Of a DNA stretch of 39,792 nucleotides, positions 1 through 37,895 are shown in pieces (the stretch's first letter is position 1; each line of letters starts with the position of its first letter). The stretch is from an uncultured Elusimicrobiales bacterium. GTDB taxonomy: Bacteria; Elusimicrobiota; Elusimicrobia; Elusimicrobiales; Elusimicrobiaceae. The position numbers and the translations under genes are program-made. The stretch is taken from positions 1 through 39,792 of the forward strand of contig CALVFE010000012.1 in the NCBI GenBank assembly GCA_944326765.1, given 5' to 3'. Under the pieces are notes generated by a model that saw only the letters and a list, made by a program, of their open reading frames with translations, searched no databases and was not told the DNA's origin.

Positions 1-262
1 AGATAAAAGCCGATCGAATCACGCGGCATTTATAGGCACGCTCCTTGCTGCCGCGGCAGGCGTAACAATGCCCGCCGCCGGATTTGAGTACCGCGCCGCA
101 ACGTTTACACACCCACGGCCCCGGCGGCTGCAAAGCCGCCGCGCACGAAGCACATAAGGGAGCTTCTTCCCGCCACGGCAAATCCCGGCCGCAAGCAAAA
201 CATGTACGCGGAAACCAAAAATACAAAAAGAGTTTAAGCGAATTTTCCAAAAACTTTTTCAT
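1..262 (-). CDS. comF: ComF family protein, N-terminal part (runs off the window edge)
   Basis: Reading the minus strand from the ATG at 262 gives 87 codons with no stop before the window edge. The peptide starts MKKFLENSLKLFLYFWF and carries four CxxC pairs (Cys21/24, 37/40, 52/55, 66/69), the usual N-terminal zinc-ribbon layout of ComF/GntX proteins, followed by the start of the phosphoribosyltransferase-like part (RVIRSAF). In known ComF proteins this cytoplasmic PRTase-fold domain supports uptake or processing of transforming DNA. The start lies only 4 bases after the stop of the SprA-like gene, so the two are probably cotranscribed; no strong Shine-Dalgarno is visible, which suggests translational coupling. 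The catalytic half is outside the window, so intactness cannot be judged. Confidence 0.85.
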   Translation of the reverse strand, partial: MKKFLENSLKLFLYFWFPRTCFACGRDLPWREEAPLCASCAAALQPPGPWVCKRCGAVLKSGGGHCYACRGSKERAYKCRVIRSAFI

Positions 263-266
263 ACCG

Positions 267-3200
267 TTAAAATTGCACTGTTACGTTTGCCGCCACATTA
301 TAGGCGGTATAATCTTCGGTTTCCACATAGGCATGGTTCAAAAGGGTAAACCCGCCGCCCACGGTAAAGCGCAAATTCTGAGAAAGTTCATAATCCAACG
401 AAGTACTGAAATCAAATTTTTGATAGTTCTCCGTTACTTCCACCGGCGAACGTTTGTCCGTATAAGAAAACGTGGTGTTCCAGATTACGCGGTTGGTGGC
501 ATTGTACATTTTGTTGATAAAAGGCAATTTAAAACCACGCGGCAGGTTGAAATCCCAACGCAGGTTTAAACTGGGGGTGGTTTCCGTACTGCTTTCGCTG
601 ATTTGCCCGGCCACCAGCCATTTATCATGCGAAGTATAAAGCAATTTAGGCGTTACGCGCATAGAACCAATATAGAAAGACGTCTGGGCAGAGATATCAT
701 TATCCTGGATACGTTCCAAACTCGTTCCGGCACGCAAGTCTGTTTTATCGGACTCTTTGCGCGTATAGTTAAGCACCGTATCAAAGAAATTAAACAGCAT
801 AAACCGCAAATCGCCGCCATATTGGGTGGTATATTGTTCATCTGTTCCCGTAGTAGTTTGCTCCACCCAGCTGTAACGCAGTTTGAGGTTCGAGGAACTG
901 AACCAGCGCCCGCCATAAAAGAATTTCTCCAAATCCGAGATGGAAAACGTCATATCCGGCAGGGTTAAGCTGGTGGAGTCATATAAAGTGCCGGTCTGGT
1001 CATTGGTCTGAAGGGTTTTGGTAAAGTTATTAATCAGCGAAATAGTTTTAAGCGGAGCGGCGGCGCCTCCCAAGTTATATTGCGAAAGCGGACTCCAGCG
1101 CTGCGTGGAGGTGAAGGTATCGCGCAAAATCAAACTTTTGCGGTACCCGTATTCGCCCACATCTTTCAGCGAACTGCGGATCCACAACTCTTTGCGCGAA
1201 TCGTAATCGCTGTCCACGTCATACCAGGAATCCGCGTCTTGGATACGATAGCTGGAAGAAATCACAAACGTATTAAAAAGTTTACTGTTGGGAAGCAATT
1301 CATTTCCATTCAGCGTAAGCGAAATGCCGCCGTCGGCGTTACGATTGATGGTTTTCACTTCGCCAACCCCCACCGCCACCTGCTGTCCGGAAGCGGTAAT
1401 GGTTTTGGCCGTGAGGTTATTGTTTTCCACGGTGCTGATGTTATAACTTATTGACGGAGCCAGCCATTTGGTAATTTTCCAGGTACTGTTAAAACCCGTA
1501 TTTTGGCTCATGGCTTTGGGATAACTGATATTTTCGGCAGAATCCACCTCATACGTGGTTCGGTTTTCTTTGCTTTTGCTCAAGCTGTAGCTGGGCGTAA
1601 AGTTAAAATTATTGGTCGGCTGGTACGTTACCTTCATATTCATTTTTTGGGTATTTTCGTCGGTATTATAATAGCTGTCGGACTCCAGATGCTTAGCACG
1701 GTCGTAATCGATGGTGGAATCGGTAATATGATATCCGGCGGTGATATTTTTAAATGCTCCGGCGGAATGTGTCAGTGTGGCGCCGTAGGTACGGGCATCA
1801 TCTTTGCGTTTCATGGCATCATATTCCACGGTATCCATGGTATATTCCAGCCCGATCTGAGGCAAATTCTCTTTCTTAAAATCCCCGCGGACTACCGCAC
1901 GTTGGCGATCCACCTTTCCTTTGTCCAACAAACTGATGGTGTTATAATCCGTAGTATCGGTAACCATGGGCGTTACCGTAGAAGAACGCGTCAAATTGGC
2001 TTCCATGGGAAATTCTTGAATCTTATCTACTTTCAAGAAATACTCCTCTTCCGTGATTTCCTGGTTCTTAGATACCGCCAGCGGCGTTTCAAAGTTGCTG
2101 TCCTGATACTTATATTTGGCGCCCGCACTTCCCCAGCCGTCAAGCTTTACCACCACATCGCCTTTATAAGCCGTTCCTTCCAATGTGATTGACTCGGCCA
2201 AATGAATCACATTCAGCCACACTTCTCCCCGGCTGCCGATAGCAGCCACTTGATCTAATACGGCGGTATAAACAGCATTATTCTCCAGCACTGCCTGATA
2301 CGAACCATCTGGCTGAACGCTGACCGATTTCACTGTTCCGGCGGAAATTGTAAAATTCGCATCTTTATAAAGCGCCAACCCCGCCTGCAAAATACCACGG
2401 GCGAATAATTTTTCGCTGTTATCCTGCTGAGTGAAAGTATATTCATACCGGCTTTCGGTTTGAACGCCCGTAAACATCAGGCTTACTTCCCGGAAATTCA
2501 TCACGCCGCCCGGCGCCCGGCGGCGCACCACGCGCACATTGTAAGACGGATCGGAAACGTTTTCAAAAGAATCCGGCACGCCGTCTCCGTCCGTATCCAC
2601 CATTTCAAGCGAAATCAGCCGCCAGCCCTGAAAGTTCGTGGGAACAATAATTTTATCGAAATTGGTTTCGGTGCCCACTTTTAAGAAAAACTCCGTTCCG
2701 TCTTGATTGAGCGGGCGCGCGCCTCCTTGTTCCATGGCCCCGTGCAGCAGAAAACGAAATTCCCGATGCTGGGTAAAATCCATGCTGACAAAATTACGGT
2801 TTGCATAGAGCTCACCCGCAGGATCCAGGTCGGAATTATCGTCCCGTACCGCCGGCAATCCGATCGTGTTAAATTTGATGTTTAACGCCTGATCAAGCGC
2901 GTTGGCCGAACCAGTGGCCTGCTTATAATTATTGACCGATCCATACAAATAATTAAACACGGTCAGCCCGTCGCCATTCATATCGGCAAAGATGGGCTCG
3001 TAATTGGTATTATCCACATTATTGATGCCGGCAACGGAGAATTCGTCCGGATTGGTGTCTTCTTGCGCATTCCACGCCGTACCCGATAAAGACACATTGG
3101 CGATTTTAATCTGCCCTTTGAGTTTGCCTGTCCGTCTCATTTCGTCCGTTAATTTCAGCGTAATACGCAAATGACGAACCGCCGTCCACTGTTCTTTTTC

Positions 3201-5918
3201 GTCGGCCGAAAGCAAAAGCGGCATGGTGTAGGTTGTCCACGAAGTGTTGGAAGCGGTATTATTTACCAACCCGTCGATGGCGGCGCCGGCAAAACCGAAA
3301 TTCCCCTGCAAGGGCATACTTTCCGCATCATACACGCCGTTGCCGTTTAAGTCCTGCGTATCGATGCGGCCGTTGGGCTGAGATTCCGGATTATAGACGT
3401 TGTTTACAAAAGGGTTGTAGCGCTCTTCCGTACCGTCCGGGTTTGTAAACAGCCAGCCGATATCTTCGTTAGGCGCCAAGGTATTGCGGCAATAAATGTC
3501 TTCCGTTTTGGGCACATTAGTACCGCACTGAGTATCCATACCGTTTGAAGAATCGGAATATTCGGAGATGTTTCCAAAAGCGAAGTTTACCTGCGGTCCG
3601 TTTTCCTCCCCTAACATCGTTAATTCAAAAGAGGTCTTGCTGGATAAATCCATACCGCTTTGGCTCAACGGATAAACGATAGAAACTTCATCGCGGCCTG
3701 TTTCGTTTAAAAACGGCTCTCCGGTTGACGGATCGATCGTAGTAGCCGGCAAGGTAAAGTCATAATTTAAAATTAACACTTGCTGCTTGTCGTTATAGTT
3801 GGCAATCGAATGCGGATTGATTTCCAGGGAAGGCAGATCTTGCGTATCCCAATGAATGGAATTTAAAAAGGCCGGTTTGCCGCTGGGGTTAGAAGCAAAA
3901 ATCCAGTCCCGGAAGATCATGGACCCGCCCACCTGTTCGGTGGTTTCGTTCATGCTGTCCACCATGGCATAACCGAATAAGTTTTGATTTTTTGTGCTTT
4001 TGGCCACTTCCGCGCTGAAATCCACCGACAGCGGCTCAGCCAGCCGAATATCCTTCCCGTTAATATCCGCCCCATACACCAATAAATCTTTCGAATAGTT
4101 CCCCACCTGCGGCACCGTGCTGGGTTTTTCGCCTCCCTCTTTGAGCATGGTGGCTCCCATGATAATTTTGTCGAATAGTTTATAATCCAACCGGCCGCCC
4201 ATAACGGAATTATTGGAGCTGGAACCCGTGGTCGTATCATAGGTGATATCGATGACGGAATTTTCCGTAATTTCATCGCCCTTATAGAAAGTGATAAAGC
4301 CGGAAGTATAGTCGATGTAATAATCGTTGTTGCGCGTGAGGGTGCGGCCGTTTAATTTCACGCTTTCGGATTCGATTACAATGCCCGATTCAATAAAATA
4401 GGTCTTTACGGTGGATTCATACTGTATTTTAAACGTCAGGTTTTTAGAAGAAGTCGGCGTCGTGCCATACAGTCCCGTATCGTTAATGCGATAAGCCAGA
4501 TTGAAAATACCGGTATCAAAATCCACATCAATATAAGAAGGATAAGTATAATACGCACTGGTAACCGCTTGGCCGTTGGCATCTTGCAGCTGCAAGATAA
4601 AATTTCCTTTTCCGTTATCCTGCGTAATTTTCTGCGCGCCAATATTGTAGTAAGTCTTTAACTCCAGCTTGTTGGCAGTTTCAGTGACCATGGCCGAGCC
4701 CGTTTCAATGGATTTATCGTTCTCGGTTTTAATAAGCTTAATGGTGCCCGTTTTTCCCATCGTATTGCTCAGCTGGTTTCCGCGGGTATCCCGGTAATCT
4801 ACGGCGATTACGCTTTCAGCGGTAATACTGCGTTTAAACGTGATGATGCCGCTGGCATAGTCCACCGTATAATCCACCCCGCGGGTTAAGAGCTGCCATT
4901 TGGCGGGATATTCCGTGCTTCCCAACACGTCCGTAGCGATTTTATCTACAGGCACATAATCGGAGGAAGTGGAAGAATCGTTGCTGTAATAATAAATTTC
5001 TTCGGTGCCGGGCGAAATGCTGCCCATTAAAGTGCGCCATTCGTCGTACGCCGTACGATCGACGGGATAGCGGATATTGCCGCCGTCATCGATATACGGC
5101 CGCACGTTTCCGCCGAATGTCAAGTCGTAATACGTGCGCCGCAGGTAGGAGGTATCCGCCAGGGAAATAATTTCCGATACGCTGCTGCCAATAAACTGTT
5201 TCTGTTTGCTGGAACCTTTCGTCTGCGAGCCGATTAAATAGAGGTTGGCATTGCCATGCTGCAAGTGCATTTTAGCGCCGAAAAGCTGTTTTTGATAAGC
5301 GATAAATTCCGTTTCCGGCAGAGAAAGATTAATATCCCCAAACTCCGCCAATTGCACCAGCTCTCCGGGTTTGCCGCGGTAAGCGACGGAGATGGTTTTT
5401 TCTTCTTCCCGTTGGTCGTCGTAATCGATATCCACAAATACGCGTTCCAAAATCTTACCCTGCATTTTAAGCTGCATTTCCTGCTGCATTTCGAATGAAC
5501 TGGTATTGCGTTGGTCGATATCATTATTGGCGTCTTGCTTATATTTTTGGGCAGCCAGCACAAACCCCAGCACATAACGCCCCGTCAGGGCAATACTGGT
5601 ACCGTAGAGCGGCAGCGAAAGGGTAGGATTTAAAAGCGTAAGATCGGGGATCGGCTCGGGTTCGTTGTCCAGCCGGTAAGACCCTTCCACCGAAGTAACG
5701 GCTTGGCGCCAGAACTCATCGGTAAATTTAAGCAGCTCCGCGTCGTCCGGCGGATCTTCAATCGTAAGGGCTTCTTCTTTTGCGGCTTGTTCTTCTTTAA
5801 AAATAGAGTATTGGTCTTTATCCACCAGGCTGTACGGCAACGATTCGGCGCCGGCCGGCGGAGCGGCGACGAATTGTAAAGTCAGTAAAAGGGCAACAGG
5901 GAGCCGCAGTATTTTCAT
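267..5918 (-). CDS. Giant SprA-like outer-membrane protein (type IX translocon family)
   Basis: An 1883-residue protein with an N-terminal signal peptide (MKILRLPVALLLTLQFVAAP, cut near AGAES) and a C-terminal aromatic strand ending NVTVQF, typical of outer-membrane beta-barrels. Several blocks recall SprA, the Bacteroidetes type IX secretion pore: the GDINLSLP...LFGAKMHLQ block (~194-219), two repeats of the form GVDYTVDYASGIITF (~347-375 and ~531-560), KLFDKIIMGATMLKEGGEKP (~580-599), and mid-protein strands followed by an RLISLEMVD-like segment. SprA is usually about 2400 residues, so this is shorter. A likely -10 (TAGAAT, 5945-5950) gives a leader of about 20 bases; GAGG lies 14 bases before the ATG, too far for a normal ribosome site, and the gap is a pyrimidine tract. 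comF follows. No PorV, PorU or other type IX gene is in the window, so the translocon role is inferred from family resemblance. Confidence 0.78.
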   Translation of the reverse strand: MKILRLPVALLLTLQFVAAPPAGAESLPYSLVDKDQYSIFKEEQAAKEEALTIEDPPDDAELLKFTDEFWRQAVTSVEGSYRLDNEPEPIPDLTLLNPTLSLPLYGTSIALTGRYVLGFVLAAQKYKQDANNDIDQRNTSSFEMQQEMQLKMQGKILERVFVDIDYDDQREEEKTISVAYRGKPGELVQLAEFGDINLSLPETEFIAYQKQLFGAKMHLQHGNANLYLIGSQTKGSSKQKQFIGSSVSEIISLADTSYLRRTYYDLTFGGNVRPYIDDGGNIRYPVDRTAYDEWRTLMGSISPGTEEIYYYSNDSSTSSDYVPVDKIATDVLGSTEYPAKWQLLTRGVDYTVDYASGIITFKRSITAESVIAVDYRDTRGNQLSNTMGKTGTIKLIKTENDKSIETGSAMVTETANKLELKTYYNIGAQKITQDNGKGNFILQLQDANGQAVTSAYYTYPSYIDVDFDTGIFNLAYRINDTGLYGTTPTSSKNLTFKIQYESTVKTYFIESGIVIESESVKLNGRTLTRNNDYYIDYTSGFITFYKGDEITENSVIDITYDTTTGSSSNNSVMGGRLDYKLFDKIIMGATMLKEGGEKPSTVPQVGNYSKDLLVYGADINGKDIRLAEPLSVDFSAEVAKSTKNQNLFGYAMVDSMNETTEQVGGSMIFRDWIFASNPSGKPAFLNSIHWDTQDLPSLEINPHSIANYNDKQQVLILNYDFTLPATTIDPSTGEPFLNETGRDEVSIVYPLSQSGMDLSSKTSFELTMLGEENGPQVNFAFGNISEYSDSSNGMDTQCGTNVPKTEDIYCRNTLAPNEDIGWLFTNPDGTEERYNPFVNNVYNPESQPNGRIDTQDLNGNGVYDAESMPLQGNFGFAGAAIDGLVNNTASNTSWTTYTMPLLLSADEKEQWTAVRHLRITLKLTDEMRRTGKLKGQIKIANVSLSGTAWNAQEDTNPDEFSVAGINNVDNTNYEPIFADMNGDGLTVFNYLYGSVNNYKQATGSANALDQALNIKFNTIGLPAVRDDNSDLDPAGELYANRNFVSMDFTQHREFRFLLHGAMEQGGARPLNQDGTEFFLKVGTETNFDKIIVPTNFQGWRLISLEMVDTDGDGVPDSFENVSDPSYNVRVVRRRAPGGVMNFREVSLMFTGVQTESRYEYTFTQQDNSEKLFARGILQAGLALYKDANFTISAGTVKSVSVQPDGSYQAVLENNAVYTAVLDQVAAIGSRGEVWLNVIHLAESITLEGTAYKGDVVVKLDGWGSAGAKYKYQDSNFETPLAVSKNQEITEEEYFLKVDKIQEFPMEANLTRSSTVTPMVTDTTDYNTISLLDKGKVDRQRAVVRGDFKKENLPQIGLEYTMDTVEYDAMKRKDDARTYGATLTHSAGAFKNITAGYHITDSTIDYDRAKHLESDSYYNTDENTQKMNMKVTYQPTNNFNFTPSYSLSKSKENRTTYEVDSAENISYPKAMSQNTGFNSTWKITKWLAPSISYNISTVENNNLTAKTITASGQQVAVGVGEVKTINRNADGGISLTLNGNELLPNSKLFNTFVISSSYRIQDADSWYDVDSDYDSRKELWIRSSLKDVGEYGYRKSLILRDTFTSTQRWSPLSQYNLGGAAAPLKTISLINNFTKTLQTNDQTGTLYDSTSLTLPDMTFSISDLEKFFYGGRWFSSSNLKLRYSWVEQTTTGTDEQYTTQYGGDLRFMLFNFFDTVLNYTRKESDKTDLRAGTSLERIQDNDISAQTSFYIGSMRVTPKLLYTSHDKWLVAGQISESSTETTPSLNLRWDFNLPRGFKLPFINKMYNATNRVIWNTTFSYTDKRSPVEVTENYQKFDFSTSLDYELSQNLRFTVGGGFTLLNHAYVETEDYTAYNVAANVTVQF

Positions 5919-5993
5919 AAGAAGAAAAAATACCTCATTATTTCATTCTATAATATTTGCTCTTTTCTTCCTATCAACCCTTTCCGAAATAAA

Positions 5994-6015
5994 AAAGGCT
6001 CCTTGCGGAGCCTTT
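5994..6015 (-). terminator. Rho-independent terminator after the protease gene
   Basis: Nine-base-pair stem AAAGGCTCC/GGAGCCTTT with a 4-base loop. On the minus strand it runs into TTTTTTATTTC. It ends the 6030-7196 gene and separates it from the SprA-like gene, which has its own -10-like sequence downstream. Confidence 0.85.
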
Positions 6016-6029
6016 ATCCAATAACTAAT

Positions 6030-7196
6030 TTACTCAATTCCAACCGATATCGTTCGCTGTATAATGCGATGTTTCACAATTTCAAATTCCAAAAAATCTC
6101 CATGCCGCACATCGGCAAATAAACACTCGGCCGCCGCCGGATCAAATTCCCCCGGATATTGAGGCAAATAGACTTTATGCAATAAAGTCCCATATTGATC
6201 AAAATGATATACCCACCCCACCGTTTCTTCCGCTTGCAATAGCATCACCAAACGTCCATACACTTTAAAAGGTATGCCGGCAGGAGTCATTCCTTTTTCA
6301 TAACTGCCGATCAGCCATTCCAGCGTCTGGCGGGCATTCACGGCAAAAACCAACCCCAATTTGGGATCATGACCGCTGTAAATTCCCACCACCTTCCCCT
6401 GTTCATCTAATACGGGACTGCCGCATAACCCGTCAAAATCATCGGAAACATCTGGGCTTTTCATCACAATCTTAACGTTTTGTGCCAGCTGAACCTTCAG
6501 TTCGTCAATGCGGGCAAATCCGTTTGCGGCATAGGGGCTTCCCCACACAATCAATTCACTGGCTTTTGGGGGCAGTGAAGCGGCCACCTGCAACGGCCGA
6601 ACATGCTTTTGCGCGGCAGGAGGCAGCGCAATAATAGCCGCATCGGGCGCATTGATTCCAAATGATCCTGCCCGATTGACGATCAGCCCATTATACACGA
6701 CCGGAGTTCCTTGCGCGTCATACATACGGACAGCCACTGTCCTTCCGGCATGCCCCACTACATGATAGGAAACTACCGCATACAATTTACCCGCCCCGGA
6801 ACGCACCACAAAACCACTGCCCAGCAACTCGCCATTATTCCGCCCAATCACTTCCACCAACGATTGCCGGATATACTTCTCCGTCTTAGCCAGAGGCGAA
6901 AGTTCCGTCTTTTGTAAAGCAACCCGCGCCGCCACTTGCTTTTCAATCAGGCCAGCCAGTTCTCCCGCATTTTGCTTTTCGGGGTTCCCCGCGGTATTAG
7001 CAGCAGATGATCGCACGGAAGAAATCATACCGTTAGAAGGCAGTACCGGCCGGACGTATTTCACTGGCGGAAGGAATAATTTTTCCAACTTACTGGGAGA
7101 CAGAACTTCCTGCACCACAGCTTTTTGCGGAAGTTTTTGCGAAAAGCAGAGAGAAACAGTTAATAAGAAGCACAAAGCGGCCAAGAATTTTCTCAT
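6030..7196 (-). CDS. Secreted chymotrypsin-fold protease with a Cys nucleophile
   Basis: A 388-residue protein from the ATG at 7196, chosen because it starts a clean signal peptide (MRKFLAALCFLLTVSLCFSQ); the reading frame is open upstream to 7301 but that stretch has no signal or ribosome site. Residues about 105-300 look like a trypsin/Deg-type domain: SGFVVRSG, then YHVVGHAG with His145, NAPDAAIIALP with Asp185, and GLCGSPVLDEQGKVVGIYSG, where Cys258 sits at the position of the catalytic Ser of GDSGGP. The C-terminal ~80 residues are not recognised. It is probably periplasmic. A perfect TATAAT (7204-7209) is 7 bases from the ATG with no Shine-Dalgarno, so the mRNA may be leaderless. It is divergent from lptF. 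The protease fold is fairly sure; activity with Cys is inferred. Confidence 0.8.
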   Translation of the reverse strand: MRKFLAALCFLLTVSLCFSQKLPQKAVVQEVLSPSKLEKLFLPPVKYVRPVLPSNGMISSVRSSAANTAGNPEKQNAGELAGLIEKQVAARVALQKTELSPLAKTEKYIRQSLVEVIGRNNGELLGSGFVVRSGAGKLYAVVSYHVVGHAGRTVAVRMYDAQGTPVVYNGLIVNRAGSFGINAPDAAIIALPPAAQKHVRPLQVAASLPPKASELIVWGSPYAANGFARIDELKVQLAQNVKIVMKSPDVSDDFDGLCGSPVLDEQGKVVGIYSGHDPKLGLVFAVNARQTLEWLIGSYEKGMTPAGIPFKVYGRLVMLLQAEETVGWVYHFDQYGTLLHKVYLPQYPGEFDPAAAECLFADVRHGDFLEFEIVKHRIIQRTISVGIE

Positions 7197-7203
7197 ATAA
7201 AAA

Positions 7204-7209
7204 ATTATA
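7204..7209 (-). promoter_or_regulatory. -10 box of the protease gene, 7 bases from its ATG
   Basis: TATAAT on the minus strand; the expected start of transcription falls at or next to the ATG at 7196. The -35 region (TGGTTG, 17 bases upstream) is weak. Confidence 0.55.
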
Positions 7210-7308
7210 CTCGCTTTTCTATTGCCCAACCAGGGCCGGAAGACCCAAACGATATTTAGGCCCCGAAACAAAAACTGATTTTCCCTTCCGACTAGGTTCA
7301 TATTTTGT

Positions 7309-7314
7309 TAGAAT
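7309..7314 (+). promoter_or_regulatory. -10 box of lptF, 7 bases from its ATG
   Basis: TAGAAT followed by AAAAGAT and the lptF ATG. There is no Shine-Dalgarno, so transcription probably starts at the start codon. The -35 region is weak. Confidence 0.5.
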
Positions 7315-7321
7315 AAAAGAT

Positions 7322-8416
7322 ATGCGTATCGGCATTTTTACCAGATACATCGCCAAAAGCCTCCTTACGTTCTTTTTAGGCGTATTAGGGGTGCTTACGT
7401 TTGTCATTTTTATGAACCAGTTCATTCGGATTCTGGATATGGCTATGACGTACGGCACAAGTTTTGGGTGGATTGTATCTTCCTTGCTTAATGTACTGCC
7501 CAATGTGTTTTGCCTAAGTGCGCCGATGGCGTTTCAAATTGCCATTCTTCTAACGCTTACCAATATGAGTGAACACGGAGAACTTATCGCCTTACGCGCC
7601 GCCGGGTTTTCATTTAAAGAAATCATCAAACCGCTTTTTATGTGCGCTCTAGTATTAACCGTCATCTTGTTTATTATGCAAAACTGGCTGACGCCGCGCA
7701 GTTATAAGCGGCTGATAGACCGCCGCAGCGAAGCGCGCAGCAAAATCACAAAAGTCAATCTCGAACCGAAAACATTTTTAAATCTGGGGGAATGGGAGTT
7801 ATATTTGGAAAGCTTGGATAAAAATACCGACGAAGCCCATCAAATCCACTTGATAAAAAAAGAAGACGACGGTGCTTTAAGCACCAAAGTAAACGCCTCT
7901 ACGGGAAAGGTAATTTTAACCAATACCGCCATTGGCCTGCGGCTCGAAAACGGGCAGATGCAGCGGCTTGATGAAAAAGATCCCTCCTCCTTTATTGCGG
8001 CGAATTTTGACGAATATATTATGAGCATCTCGCTTTTAAAAGCCCAATACCGTCGGCTGCGGGTGGGAGAAATGTCCACCACCAAACTCCTGCGGCGTAT
8101 GCGGCAAATGCCCCTGGATCAAGAAACCATCAATGAATATCGTACCGAAATCAGTATGCGAAACGTATTGGCTTTTTCTCCAATTATTTTGCTTTTTGTC
8201 AGCTGCCCGATTGGCTTTTCTTTCGGGAAACGCACCAATAAGGGCTGGGGAATGTTATTTAGCGTGATTATCATTTTTACCTTCTATCTATTAATGACGT
8301 TGGGGCTTTCTCTAGGCAAAAAATACGGCTCGATTGCCTATCCGGGCCCGTGGCTGCCGATTGTAGCGGGGGCGTTTGCCGCCCGATATTTGTGGAAAAA
8401 GAGGTTGAACATCTGA
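7322..8416 (+). CDS. lptF: LPS export system permease LptF
   Basis: A 364-residue YjgP/YjgQ-family permease. Membrane segments near residues 10-35, 55-80 and 95-120, a periplasmic beta-jellyroll-like middle (~125-270), and three C-terminal membrane segments (NVLAFSPIILLFVSCPIGFSF onward) match the LptF/LptG plan. With LptG and the LptB ATPase this inner-membrane complex pulls LPS out of the membrane and hands it to the LptC/A bridge. The stop overlaps the start of the next permease as TGATG, so both are coupled. Which of the two is F and which G is assigned only by order. Confidence 0.9.
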   Translation: MRIGIFTRYIAKSLLTFFLGVLGVLTFVIFMNQFIRILDMAMTYGTSFGWIVSSLLNVLPNVFCLSAPMAFQIAILLTLTNMSEHGELIALRAAGFSFKEIIKPLFMCALVLTVILFIMQNWLTPRSYKRLIDRRSEARSKITKVNLEPKTFLNLGEWELYLESLDKNTDEAHQIHLIKKEDDGALSTKVNASTGKVILTNTAIGLRLENGQMQRLDEKDPSSFIAANFDEYIMSISLLKAQYRRLRVGEMSTTKLLRRMRQMPLDQETINEYRTEISMRNVLAFSPIILLFVSCPIGFSFGKRTNKGWGMLFSVIIIFTFYLLMTLGLSLGKKYGSIAYPGPWLPIVAGAFAARYLWKKRLNI

Positions 8417-9501
8417 TGCGAATTTACTTTTATATCGCCAAAAAATTTTGGGGGCCGTTCTTTTTTGCGTTAGGAGTATTTACCGCGCTGGTGGTTTTGG
8501 GAGATACCTTTGAAAAAATGAAAAACCTCGGCAACGGCACCACTACTATGGTAGATTTACTGTCCTATTCCGTAGTTACATTTCCCAACTGGCTGGCCAC
8601 CATTATGCCGGTAGCTTGTTTATTAGGGGCAATTTCCGTAATCTCCGAAATGGTTGCAAATGGCGAATGGACGGCTTGCGTGGCAAGCGGTTTTGCCCCG
8701 CGGCAACTGTTTAAGCCCATTATTATGTGTATTTTGGGGGTGGTCTTGTTTACGATGCTGTTACAGGAATTTATTATTCCCCCGCTAAACGCCAAATCAA
8801 ACCAGATTTACAATACGCGTATTAATCCGTCGGTAGAACCGTTTAACCCGGATATGGAACGAGATGTAATTTTAAAAATCTCCCCCAATCAAATGCTTTT
8901 TGCCAAAGAAGTGAATCTAAAAGAAGGTTCCATGAAACGCGTTTCGCTGGATACTTACGACTCCGGCTGGAACATCGCCAATCAAATTGTGGCCGATCAG
9001 ATGGTTTGGAATCCCGAAACCCAAAGCTGGCTGTTTTCTAAAGGGATACAACGCACTTTCGTAGCTCCAATGGATACGACGGAAAAATCGTTTGAAACGG
9101 TGGAATCGCCTGTTAATTTAAATCCATCGGAAATGGATATAGACCGAACGGAAAACAAATTATTAAGCATACGGGAATTATTCAAACGGATCCATTTTTT
9201 TAAGAGGAGCGGTTTGGCCTCTTATGCGGCGCAGACGATGATGCAGTCCAAATTAGCCACCCCGTTTGTTACGGTAATTATGTGTCTGTTGGGAATGCCG
9301 TTTGCCATCAGCATGCGGCGGAAAAGCAAGATTTTAAATATTATTGCTTCTTTAGTGATTGCTTTTACGTTCTGGTGGCTCATCACAATGTTTACTTCCA
9401 TTGGGGAAAACGGCTACATCAATCCCTATGTAGCGGGCTGGGGGCCGGTATTGTTTTTCTCGGTCGTGGTATTTTTTGAATTTAAATGGCTTAAATTGTA
9501 A
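8416..9501 (+). CDS. lptG: LPS export system permease LptG
   Basis: A 361-residue second permease of the YjgP/YjgQ family, starting at the ATG inside TGATG (stop of lptF); the frame is open further upstream inside lptF but the protein MRIYFYIAKKFWGPFFFALG begins exactly like family members. N-terminal membrane helices, a periplasmic domain (~140-270) and C-terminal helices (TPFVTVIMCLLGMPFAISMRR, then two more) mirror LptF. It pairs with LptF in LPS extraction. A strong hairpin terminator follows, so lptF-lptG form a two-gene unit. Confidence 0.9.
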   Translation: MRIYFYIAKKFWGPFFFALGVFTALVVLGDTFEKMKNLGNGTTTMVDLLSYSVVTFPNWLATIMPVACLLGAISVISEMVANGEWTACVASGFAPRQLFKPIIMCILGVVLFTMLLQEFIIPPLNAKSNQIYNTRINPSVEPFNPDMERDVILKISPNQMLFAKEVNLKEGSMKRVSLDTYDSGWNIANQIVADQMVWNPETQSWLFSKGIQRTFVAPMDTTEKSFETVESPVNLNPSEMDIDRTENKLLSIRELFKRIHFFKRSGLASYAAQTMMQSKLATPFVTVIMCLLGMPFAISMRRKSKILNIIASLVIAFTFWWLITMFTSIGENGYINPYVAGWGPVLFFSVVVFFEFKWLKL

Positions 9502-9944: not shown

Positions 9945-11354
9945 TTATTTTTGATAAGGGGCTACTAACTTTTCCCCAAAATCCAATAATGCCTGCGTAT
10001 CTTTTTTAGTAGCGGTTTCGGCATAAATACGCAAAAGCGGTTCCGTTCCAGACGGGCGCAAAAGCAACCACTCATCATTTTCGAAAACAATTTTAAGACC
10101 GTCAAACGTAAGCGTTTGTGCCACCCGACGCCCATTTATTTTTTTAGGCAATTTTTTACGGATTTTATCCGCCATGACCGCTTTATCCACTGGTTTGGAA
10201 ATGGGCAAATCCCGGCGCATATATACAGACGCTCCATATTCTTGCGCGATATCCGCACAAAGTTCACTGGCTTTTTTGCCGGTGGTAGCCATAATCTCCA
10301 AGAACGCCAAGGAGACTGTCAACCCGTCGCGGTCTGGCAGATTTCCTTTCCAAGCAAATCCGCCCGACTCCTCCACCCCAAAGGCCACGTCGTCTAAATT
10401 CATTCTTTCGGCCACATTTTTAAAGCCCACCCCTACTTCTTCAAACAACATTTCGTACTTGCGGGCAATGCGTTTAAGCAAATATCCCATAGAAATGGTT
10501 TGCACGATATTGCCTTTCAGCTTTTTATATTTCACCAAATAATTGCACAACACCGCCGCAATAATACAAGGAGTAAGATAATTGCCTTTTTCATCTATTA
10601 AAGCCACTCGGTCGCCGTCGCCGTCAAAAGCAATTCCCAGCGCCGCCTTTTTTTCCAACACGGTTTTTTTAAGAACGGTCAAATTCTTTTCCACCGGTTC
10701 GGGCTGTTCGGCATTAAAAGTAGGCTCGTGTTCCGCCCGCAGGGCAATTACCTGTTTGGCCGGAATAAATTTTTCCAAATAACCGGCCGCAGAACCATGC
10801 ATGTAATCAATGACCACCTTGGATTTAAACGCCTTTAATTTCTTTGTATTTACATGGGAAGCCACATATTTAAAATAGACGTCGGAACAATCCTTCTGTT
10901 CCGCTTTCTGCCCATACAAAAACAGCACGGAATTCTGGTCTATAAATTCTTCTATTTCTTTGGTAACACGGGAAGAAGCCGATCCGCCCGCCAGTTTAAT
11001 CTTAATCCCATTGTAATGAGCCGGATTATGGCTGGCGGTTACCATAACGCTCAGCCAAAATTTATTCAAACTCAAACAAGCCGCCACCGGAGTGGAGATG
11101 GGGCAGGAAGAAAGCGTAACATCAATTTTATTTGACCGGAAAATGCTGGCAATGTCGGCGGCAAACAGGTCCGACATAAAGCGGCGGTCATAGCCGACAA
11201 AAATTTTCGGCAATTTTCCATTTTCCCCGCCGGGTGCATTTTTGTTAATATAGTCCGCCAACGCCTGCGCCACCCGGCGAACGTTTTCAAACGTAAAATC
11301 CCACGCAATGACGCCTCTCCAACCGTCGGTACCAAACCTAATTTCAGCAGCCAT
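9945..11354 (-). CDS. Phosphoglucomutase/phosphomannomutase family protein
   Basis: A 469-residue alpha-D-phosphohexomutase. Sugar-phosphate N-loop (FGTDGWRG, ~7-14), catalytic phosphoserine Ser108 in TASHNP, metal loop FDGDGDR (Asp244/246/248), sugar-binding GVEESGG and phosphate-binding RPSGTEPLLRIY near the C-terminus are all intact. It interconverts hexose 1- and 6-phosphates in the cytoplasm; glucose or mannose specificity cannot be read from the sequence. A GGGAGAG-type ribosome site precedes the ATG. The receiver gene follows at 9 bases. A second, differently organised mutase lies at 36348-37895. Confidence 0.92.
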   Translation of the reverse strand: MAAEIRFGTDGWRGVIAWDFTFENVRRVAQALADYINKNAPGGENGKLPKIFVGYDRRFMSDLFAADIASIFRSNKIDVTLSSCPISTPVAACLSLNKFWLSVMVTASHNPAHYNGIKIKLAGGSASSRVTKEIEEFIDQNSVLFLYGQKAEQKDCSDVYFKYVASHVNTKKLKAFKSKVVIDYMHGSAAGYLEKFIPAKQVIALRAEHEPTFNAEQPEPVEKNLTVLKKTVLEKKAALGIAFDGDGDRVALIDEKGNYLTPCIIAAVLCNYLVKYKKLKGNIVQTISMGYLLKRIARKYEMLFEEVGVGFKNVAERMNLDDVAFGVEESGGFAWKGNLPDRDGLTVSLAFLEIMATTGKKASELCADIAQEYGASVYMRRDLPISKPVDKAVMADKIRKKLPKKINGRRVAQTLTFDGLKIVFENDEWLLLRPSGTEPLLRIYAETATKKDTQALLDFGEKLVAPYQK

Positions 11355-36347: not shown

Positions 36348-37895
36348 TTATTTGGCCAAAATTTGTTTGGCTTGTTCAATCAAATCCTCCAAGTGTTTGG
36401 GACTGACGAACGTTTCTGCATAGATTTTAAGGATATTCTCCGTACCGGAAGGGCGCACCAAAAACCACGAACTTTGCAGATAAATTTTGATGCCGTCCGT
36501 ATCGCGCACGCGCGTTACTTTTTCTCCCGCCACCTGATGCAAATTTTCAAAATCGGCGGCTTTAAGCGATTTGACGCGTTTTTTGGTTTCTTCATCGGTA
36601 GGAACGTCCACCCGCGTATAATAAGGCGTACCGTGTTTAGCCGTCAGCTGCTGGTACAAATCGGCGATATCTCCTTCGGTCGCCATGATTTCCATCAGCA
36701 AACATACAGCCAAAATGCCGTCTTTTTCGGGAGTCCATCCGCTTACAGACATTCCGGCGCTCTCTTCTCCGGCCAGCACATATTTGCGCTTGACGATTCC
36801 TTCCACAAAGTATTTAAATCCTACATTGACTTCGTCCAACCTCAACCCATGCGACGCCGCAATACGGTCTAATAAAGAAGTGGTCCCCAGGGTGCGCCCG
36901 ATGGAATAAGCGTCGCGCACCTTATGATGCCGGTACAGATAATCCGCCATTACGCATAACGCGTGATTCGGGGAAATAAGCCCCCCCTTCGCAGTAGCGC
37001 AGCCAAAGCGGTCTGCGTCCGGATCGGAAGCGCCGGCAAAATTATAGGTGCCGTTTTCCACAAATTGAATCAGCGGCGACATCGGATATTTAGACGAAGG
37101 ATCCATGCGGATTTTTCCGTCGTGATCAATCGGAATAAAATAGAACGTGGGATCCTGCACTTTGCTGACGATTTCCACATTTTTAAGGCCGTATTTTTCT
37201 TTAATCTCCTCGTAGAACGCCAAGCTGCTGCCGCCTAACGGGTGCACCGCAAATTTTAAGGGCGAAGCCGCGATGGCTTTAAAATCAATAAACCGCGCCA
37301 GGGCCGTAATATACGGCGTAATCAAATCGGCCGAGCGAACGAGCCCCTGCTGGCGGGCTTCTTCCAACGGCATGGATTTAATTTGTTCCGGTTCAGCCAT
37401 ATATTCATTGGCGTATTTTTCAATTAACGAAGTAAGCGAAGCGTCGGCCGGGCCTCCGTTGGAGGGATTGTATTTCAGCCCCATATCCTGCGGCGGATTG
37501 TGGCTGGCAGTTCCATTCAAAGAGGCGCTGGCGCGGCCGCTGATAATTTCAAAGGAAAAAACCGGCGTCGGCAAGGGCATGTCCGGCAAGATGACCGCAA
37601 ACCCGTTTCCGGCCAGTACTTCGGCACAAAGGCGCGCCGTATCGGCAGACATCAGCCGGGTATCGCCGCCCACCAAAATGGGGCCGGTGATATTCTGCTC
37701 TTTATGAATCCGTGCGACCGCTTGCGCAATGGCTCGGGCGTGCAAAGCGCAGAAGCCCACTCCTAAAGTGCCGCGATGACCGGAAGTTCCAAATTTTACC
37801 GGAACAGGTGTCCCGTTCGGTTTAAAAAATTGTTCTCTAAGAGAAACTACATCTATTTTTTGTTTCGTCAGCGTTCCAGCGAGTTCACTTACCAT
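36348..37895 (-). CDS. pgm: Phosphoglucomutase, alpha-D-glucose phosphate-specific
   Basis: A 515-residue mutase resembling E. coli Pgm (546 residues) rather than the gene at 9945. N-terminal KFGTSGHRG (~34-42), catalytic Ser131 in GTASHNPPQDMGLKYNPSNGGPA, metal loop DPDADR (Asp291/293/295), GEESAGMS and RPSGTENILKIY are intact. It interconverts glucose 1- and 6-phosphate in glycogen or cell-envelope sugar metabolism. AGGAG 6 bases before the ATG, with TATAAT only about 14 bases upstream, gives a very short leader. Ends with its own terminator. Confidence 0.94.
   Translation of the reverse strand: MVSELAGTLTKQKIDVVSLREQFFKPNGTPVPVKFGTSGHRGTLGVGFCALHARAIAQAVARIHKEQNITGPILVGGDTRLMSADTARLCAEVLAGNGFAVILPDMPLPTPVFSFEIISGRASASLNGTASHNPPQDMGLKYNPSNGGPADASLTSLIEKYANEYMAEPEQIKSMPLEEARQQGLVRSADLITPYITALARFIDFKAIAASPLKFAVHPLGGSSLAFYEEIKEKYGLKNVEIVSKVQDPTFYFIPIDHDGKIRMDPSSKYPMSPLIQFVENGTYNFAGASDPDADRFGCATAKGGLISPNHALCVMADYLYRHHKVRDAYSIGRTLGTTSLLDRIAASHGLRLDEVNVGFKYFVEGIVKRKYVLAGEESAGMSVSGWTPEKDGILAVCLLMEIMATEGDIADLYQQLTAKHGTPYYTRVDVPTDEETKKRVKSLKAADFENLHQVAGEKVTRVRDTDGIKIYLQSSWFLVRPSGTENILKIYAETFVSPKHLEDLIEQAKQILAK

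Follow-up and report, generated by a model that had tools for sequence, protein, structure and literature searches.

The window, by which is meant the whole 39,792-nucleotide stretch analysed here, comes from a gut Elusimicrobiales bacterium and carries near one end a very large gene for a protein of the SprA family. The features of this gene and its neighbours are, in order of position:

2..262, minus strand: comF, partial, double zinc ribbon (PF18912, E 3.4e-10), a conserved downstream neighbour
267..5918, minus strand: SprA-family protein of 1883 aa, predicted giant outer-membrane barrel (translation, TIGR04189, family profile, fold matches)
276..2486, minus strand: C-terminal part, aa 1145-1881, predicted run of long beta strands forming the main barrel wall (model m42a5651d5d3a)
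2442..5606, minus strand: N-terminal part, aa 105-1159, predicted first barrel strands and inserted beta domains (model mf0e3c2d0fbb4)
4287..4331, minus strand: second DYxxDY..GxITF repeat, NNDYYIDYTSGFITF, aa 530-544 (translation, alignment, family profile)
4836..4880, minus strand: first DYxVDY..GxITF repeat, GVDYTVDYASGIITF, aa 347-361 (translation, family alignment)
5127..5588, minus strand: best SprA-model block, aa 111-264, GDINLSLP..LFGAKMHLQ (best TIGR04189 stretch)
5844..5918, minus strand: predicted signal peptide, aa 1-25, MKILRLPVALLLTLQFVAAPPAGA (by eye from the sequence)
6030..7301, minus strand: trypsin-like secreted protein between the lpt genes and sprA (PF13365, E 3.6e-7)
7322..8416, plus strand: lptF/lptG-family permease 1, divergent conserved neighbour (PF03739, E 9.2e-73)
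8350..9501, plus strand: lptF/lptG-family permease 2, conserved neighbour (PF03739, E 7.5e-68)

The open reading frame at 267..5918 is intact, with an ATG start and a translation of 1883 residues. The initial annotation had described a secreted protein of this length with an outer-membrane-type C-terminus, which agrees with what is found: a signal peptide at one end and, at the other, the sequence ...VAANVTVQF, that is, a phenylalanine-ended beta strand. The SprA-like blocks that it quoted are all present, among them GDINLSLPETEF..KQLFGAKMHLQ and KLFDKIIMGATMLKEGGEKP, although GVDY, given there for both repeats, is missing from the second copy (aa 530-544). Its placing of comF next door also holds, both from the PF18912 match to the partial gene and from synteny, since full-length homologues occupy this position elsewhere in the phylum.

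Judged by sequence, the likeness of this protein to SprA is far above chance. TIGR04189, the model of the type IX secretion system (T9SS) translocon Sov/SprA, is its sole NCBIfam match at E<=1 (E 6e-33, 113.3 bits in five stretches), and a phylum-wide search with the SprA model places the match in the window at the same site, 5127-5591. The curated equivalog cut-off of TIGR04189 is 200 bits, and therefore the protein is not filed as an equivalog; none of 248 phylum genomes reaches that score. A Pfam scan returned nothing above cut-offs, so that SprA_N was not recognised, and of the two models suggested by the initial annotation as a check only TIGR04189 bore it out. A single-sequence phmmer search of the PDB likewise gave no SprA match, and a family profile was needed. 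When such a profile (A1) was built from 22 SprA-like sequences from across the phylum and compared with the whole PDB, only F. johnsoniae SprA sequences matched (E 1.1e-33), in three collinear blocks that follow in order on SprA residues 150-267, 696-778 and 1130-1570, the second repeat of the window's protein aligning near the middle block. Significant and collinear similarity, as expected of a member of the SprA family, is thus seen with TIGR04189 and the A1 profile, and homology to SprA extends over most of the protein.

The predicted fold points in the same direction. The protein was modelled with AlphaFold in two pieces that overlap, one of aa 26-1180 (pLDDT 80.8) and one of aa 1000-1883 (pLDDT 85.4, pTM 0.59, with many long strands). 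For the first of these the four solved SprA chains take Foldseek ranks 1-4 (E 4.6e-39 to 6.5e-30, the best being 8gl8_A) and are the only matches under E 1e-3, the next standing at 1.6e-3. In VIA-align they again take ranks 1-4 (Z 15.8, 15.3, 13.8 and 13.1 over 743-879 residues; 8gl6_A, the highest, over 878 residues), and aa 105-1159 align to SprA residues 132-1497. SprA chains also fill Foldseek ranks 1-4 for the second part (E 4e-16 to 5e-13; next match 4e-7). When this C-terminal half alone was submitted to VIA-align, SprA was absent from the top 50 and the list was filled by barrels of the TonB-dependent receptor type, which we put down to generic similarity among barrel strands, this half being unclosed. 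The structural comparison proposed in the initial annotation therefore returned SprA chains as the top Foldseek matches of both halves, and neither model showed the small or missing barrel that would have spoken against it. From the two halves, modelled separately, a giant SprA-type barrel is predicted.

This gene is no peculiarity of one gut lineage. It is present in all 61 nearest genomes, and the SprA model matches 209 of 248 genomes of the phylum (165/177 of those of good quality) and 69 of 76 genera. Relatives are titled Elusimicrobia, Elusimicrobiales or Elusimicrobium MAGs and come from gut, rumen and groundwater, which confirms the earlier suggestion of a host outside the Bacteroidetes. 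The surroundings are equally constant: among 20 loci spread over the phylum, comF follows sprA in 16 and a pair of LptF/LptG genes immediately precedes it in 17, nearly always divergently transcribed. The trypsin-like protein is a more local feature: its homologues at this place are confined to some members of the gut genus, and its sequence diverges faster than that of sprA. It could process exported proteins, a link to export that is putative.

Gut species and Bacteroidota share habitats, and gut Elusimicrobia might accordingly have acquired the gene from Bacteroidota by horizontal transfer. Beyond this piece of general knowledge no computed result points to transfer, while the occurrence of the gene in 69 of 76 genera, groundwater lineages included, the conserved locus and the failure of any phylum match to reach the TIGR04189 equivalog cut-off set for Bacteroidota all argue against it. 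Moreover, across 22 loci the patristic distances of the SprA tree correlate with those of the LptFG tree (r = 0.91). We consider transfer very improbable and reject it on the phylum-wide spread, the conserved locus and the LptFG-matching tree. Because the lptG-lptF / sprA-comF locus is conserved and the SprA tree matches that of its neighbours, the data indicate vertical descent of sprA within Elusimicrobiota.

The initial annotation saw neither PorV-like proteins nor proteins with a type IX C-terminal domain (CTD), which is correct for the window but not for the genome, where one PorV gene stands downstream of a gene for a giant CTD protein. A phylum PorV profile (A3) finds a single clear PorV at L198:9313-10278(-) (E 1.5e-43); it scores 92.1 bits against an NCBIfam PorV/PorQ family cut-off of 90, and this match supersedes a search of the same genome with PF19572 that gave none. 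Directly upstream of this PorV gene, L198:10390-15450(-) codes for a secreted protein of 1687 aa with FlgD-type Ig domains, whose end, YPNPLRD...GVYFGLVDF...KVVKILVP, is a type-A CTD carrying an insertion. The domain is detected in two halves around the insertion, weakly (E 4.5e-5 and 5.8e-5), and the protein also matches the C-terminus of PorZ (5.5e-8). On the 3' side of PorV follow TadE, RcpC, a secretin, a P-loop/T2SSE fusion and two T2SSF proteins, which together make up a Tad pilus operon, and the order cargo-PorV-Tad is kept in 5/5 other genomes of the genus examined. Since the CTD cargo and PorV stand directly before the Tad operon, the 1687-aa protein is probably a surface adhesin made together with the neighbouring pilus. 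The whole stretch occupies L198:527-15450(-) on contig C14 of this genome; within it the Tad ATPase (4500-6806, minus strand) and a CpaE-like P-loop domain form one fusion protein, while the secretin (6815-7558, minus strand) has only 248 aa, most of them secretin domain.

Both elements recur throughout the phylum, so that the CTD of the gut species, weak but adjoining PorV, has abundant company: of 120 genomes, 76 have a match over the cut-off of TIGR04183, the type-A sorting domain, with as many as 44 scored matches in a single genome, and PorV (PF19572) occurs in 63 of 150, with up to 16 in one genome. When the best-listed 150 CTD and 150 PorV matches were compared, 27 CTD genes had their end no more than 1.5 kb ahead of a PorV gene in the same orientation, where 0.17 were expected. 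Twenty pairs were inspected, and mostly 0-25 bp separated the two reading frames. The cargos include M6 and S8 peptidases and beta-helix, propeller and Ig-like proteins, of which the peptidases, beta-helix and propeller types are typical of T9SS. The A3 profile matches F. johnsoniae PorV (6h3i_F, E 5e-38), and the phylum CTD profile (A2) matches PorZ, PorU and the CTD structures solved inside the translocon. A2 has one invariant lysine, in the last strand, which aligns with a lysine of these translocon-bound CTDs; a highly conserved CTD lysine contacts PorV (PMC10994853), and the two may possibly be the same residue.

Co-occurrence can be followed in the reduced genus g41, which appears to resemble Endomicrobium and has genomes of 0.5 to 1.4 Mb. 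PorV is present in all 15 genomes with SprA and in 2/12 without intact SprA (Fisher p 8e-6); in one of these two, PorV is broken by stops and the SprA remnant likewise. SprA and PorV are lost together in this genus, but genome reduction is a cause common to both, so that the association counts as supporting evidence only. Outside g41, three genomes have many PorV genes and no full SprA: G240 and G157, with no SprA match, and G101, with an SprA fragment at a contig end; assembly gaps are possible.

We hold it highly probable that Elusimicrobiota inherited a type IX-like system vertically and that this protein serves as its outer-membrane translocon. The initial annotation had proposed a shorter SprA relative that may form a secretion pore; TIGR04189, the family profile and the fold matches suggest that it probably does. 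Compared with SprA/Sov (F. johnsoniae 6H3I and 8GL8; TIGR04189), the collinear homology in three blocks, the fold of the N-terminal half (Foldseek and VIA-align), the giant barrel, predicted here, and a genome that also encodes PorV and CTD cargo are shared. However, the Elusimicrobiota protein mostly has about 1680-1960 aa, against about 2400 for SprA/Sov, its gene is not beside other T9SS genes, and a recognised motor is missing.

In F. johnsoniae, the 36-strand SprA barrel has a lateral opening at which PorV docks; inside the pore, loops of PorV are bound by the CTD of the cargo, and the complex of the two is ejected in an energised step (PMC10994853). By analogy with this solved mechanism, Elusimicrobiota cargo would cross the inner membrane via Sec and pass its C-terminal domain into the SprA pore, where this domain would bind loops of a PorV sitting at the lateral opening; cargo and PorV would then exit together, sideways, to the cell surface. 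All type-A cargos of Bacteroidota rely on a single general PorV, whereas many Elusimicrobiota cargos have a PorV gene of their own next to them. This recalls the F. johnsoniae type-B cargos, which use dedicated, gene-linked shuttles of the PorP-SprF type (PMC12618676), except that the Elusimicrobiota shuttle belongs to the PorV family and the signal is type-A-like. In the gut species the system would be pared down to a single translocon, a single shuttle and the one cargo recognised; in free-living relatives there are many cargos, each paired with its own PorV. The Elusimicrobiota genes fit the F. johnsoniae scheme with PorV-family dedicated shuttles, translocation and its energy source being inferred.

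An alternative is that the barrel has been repurposed, for example in lipid or LPS handling together with LptF/LptG, and that CTD export has been lost in the gut genus. The lpt genes do adjoin sprA in 17/20 loci, and the gut genus has one PorV only and, among the genomes listed, no CTD over the TIGR04183 cut-off. The same genus nonetheless retains a PorV gene and a CTD cargo gene side by side in a conserved order, the loss of SprA elsewhere goes with that of PorV, and the lpt genes of the window are transcribed divergently from sprA, all of which makes repurposing improbable.

The best reading is a T9SS-like translocon with dedicated shuttles, energised by a motor that is unrecognised or very divergent. 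The genome-wide search for partners recommended at the outset yielded PorV and CTD proteins, but the GldL and GldM models gave essentially nothing in the phylum genomes: GldL matched 1 of 150, below cut-off, and GldM 0 of 150, results that are weak as negatives because the control genomes gave no match either and thus supplied no positive control. It is a realistic possibility, though we would not presume it, that the system is a complete conventional T9SS whose GldK/L/M/N-type motor and ring proteins are too divergent for Bacteroidota models, a view that differs from the best reading only in the motor and whose confidence overlaps with it. SprA itself scores far below the curated cut-off in all genomes, and PF19572 missed the PorV of this genome, which the phylum profile found; therefore a motor could be missed likewise, and there is the one weak GldL match. 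Set against this, the near-complete silence of both models extends to genomes in which cargo and PorV genes number in the dozens. If this account were true, the phylum would be new and the mechanism would not.

More tentatively, and rather unlikely on present evidence, Elusimicrobiota may hold a separate, vertically inherited T9SS branch in which SprA and cargo-specific PorV shuttles work without the GldLM motor, power coming from another energy source or from none beyond shuttle release. In that case the motor would have been added later or in particular lineages, and the system would predate the FCB superphylum. The failure to find the known motor poses a testable question about energisation.

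The T9SS has been placed in Bacteroidetes only (PMC4793230, PMC7463736) or in the FCB phyla and stated to be absent elsewhere (PMC11285876), and in Poribacteria CTDs have been reported without known Por structural genes (PMC3909097). A literature search, outside whose scope many subscription papers fell, found no account of SprA or T9SS in Elusimicrobiota. The phylum-wide trio of SprA, PorV and CTD proteins would extend the T9SS beyond the FCB phyla, and the gut species, with one translocon, one shuttle and one cargo, may represent the smallest natural form of the system.

Several smaller observations accompany these results. In the gut genus, ORFs of about 410-545 aa give short PorV matches (E 1e-3 to 1e-7); they were not counted, as only a short stretch is covered, and are taken for FadL-like barrels. 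Two recurrent ORF classes of about 590 and 720 aa contain a PorV-like stretch and may be PorV fused to extra domains. In genome G077 (contig C1), from a reduced relative, SprA survives as broken remnants interrupted by several in-frame stops, and PorV is broken as well. Finally, the window itself holds two genes of the phosphomannomutase/phosphoglucomutase family, at 9945-11354 and 36348-37895, both on the minus strand.
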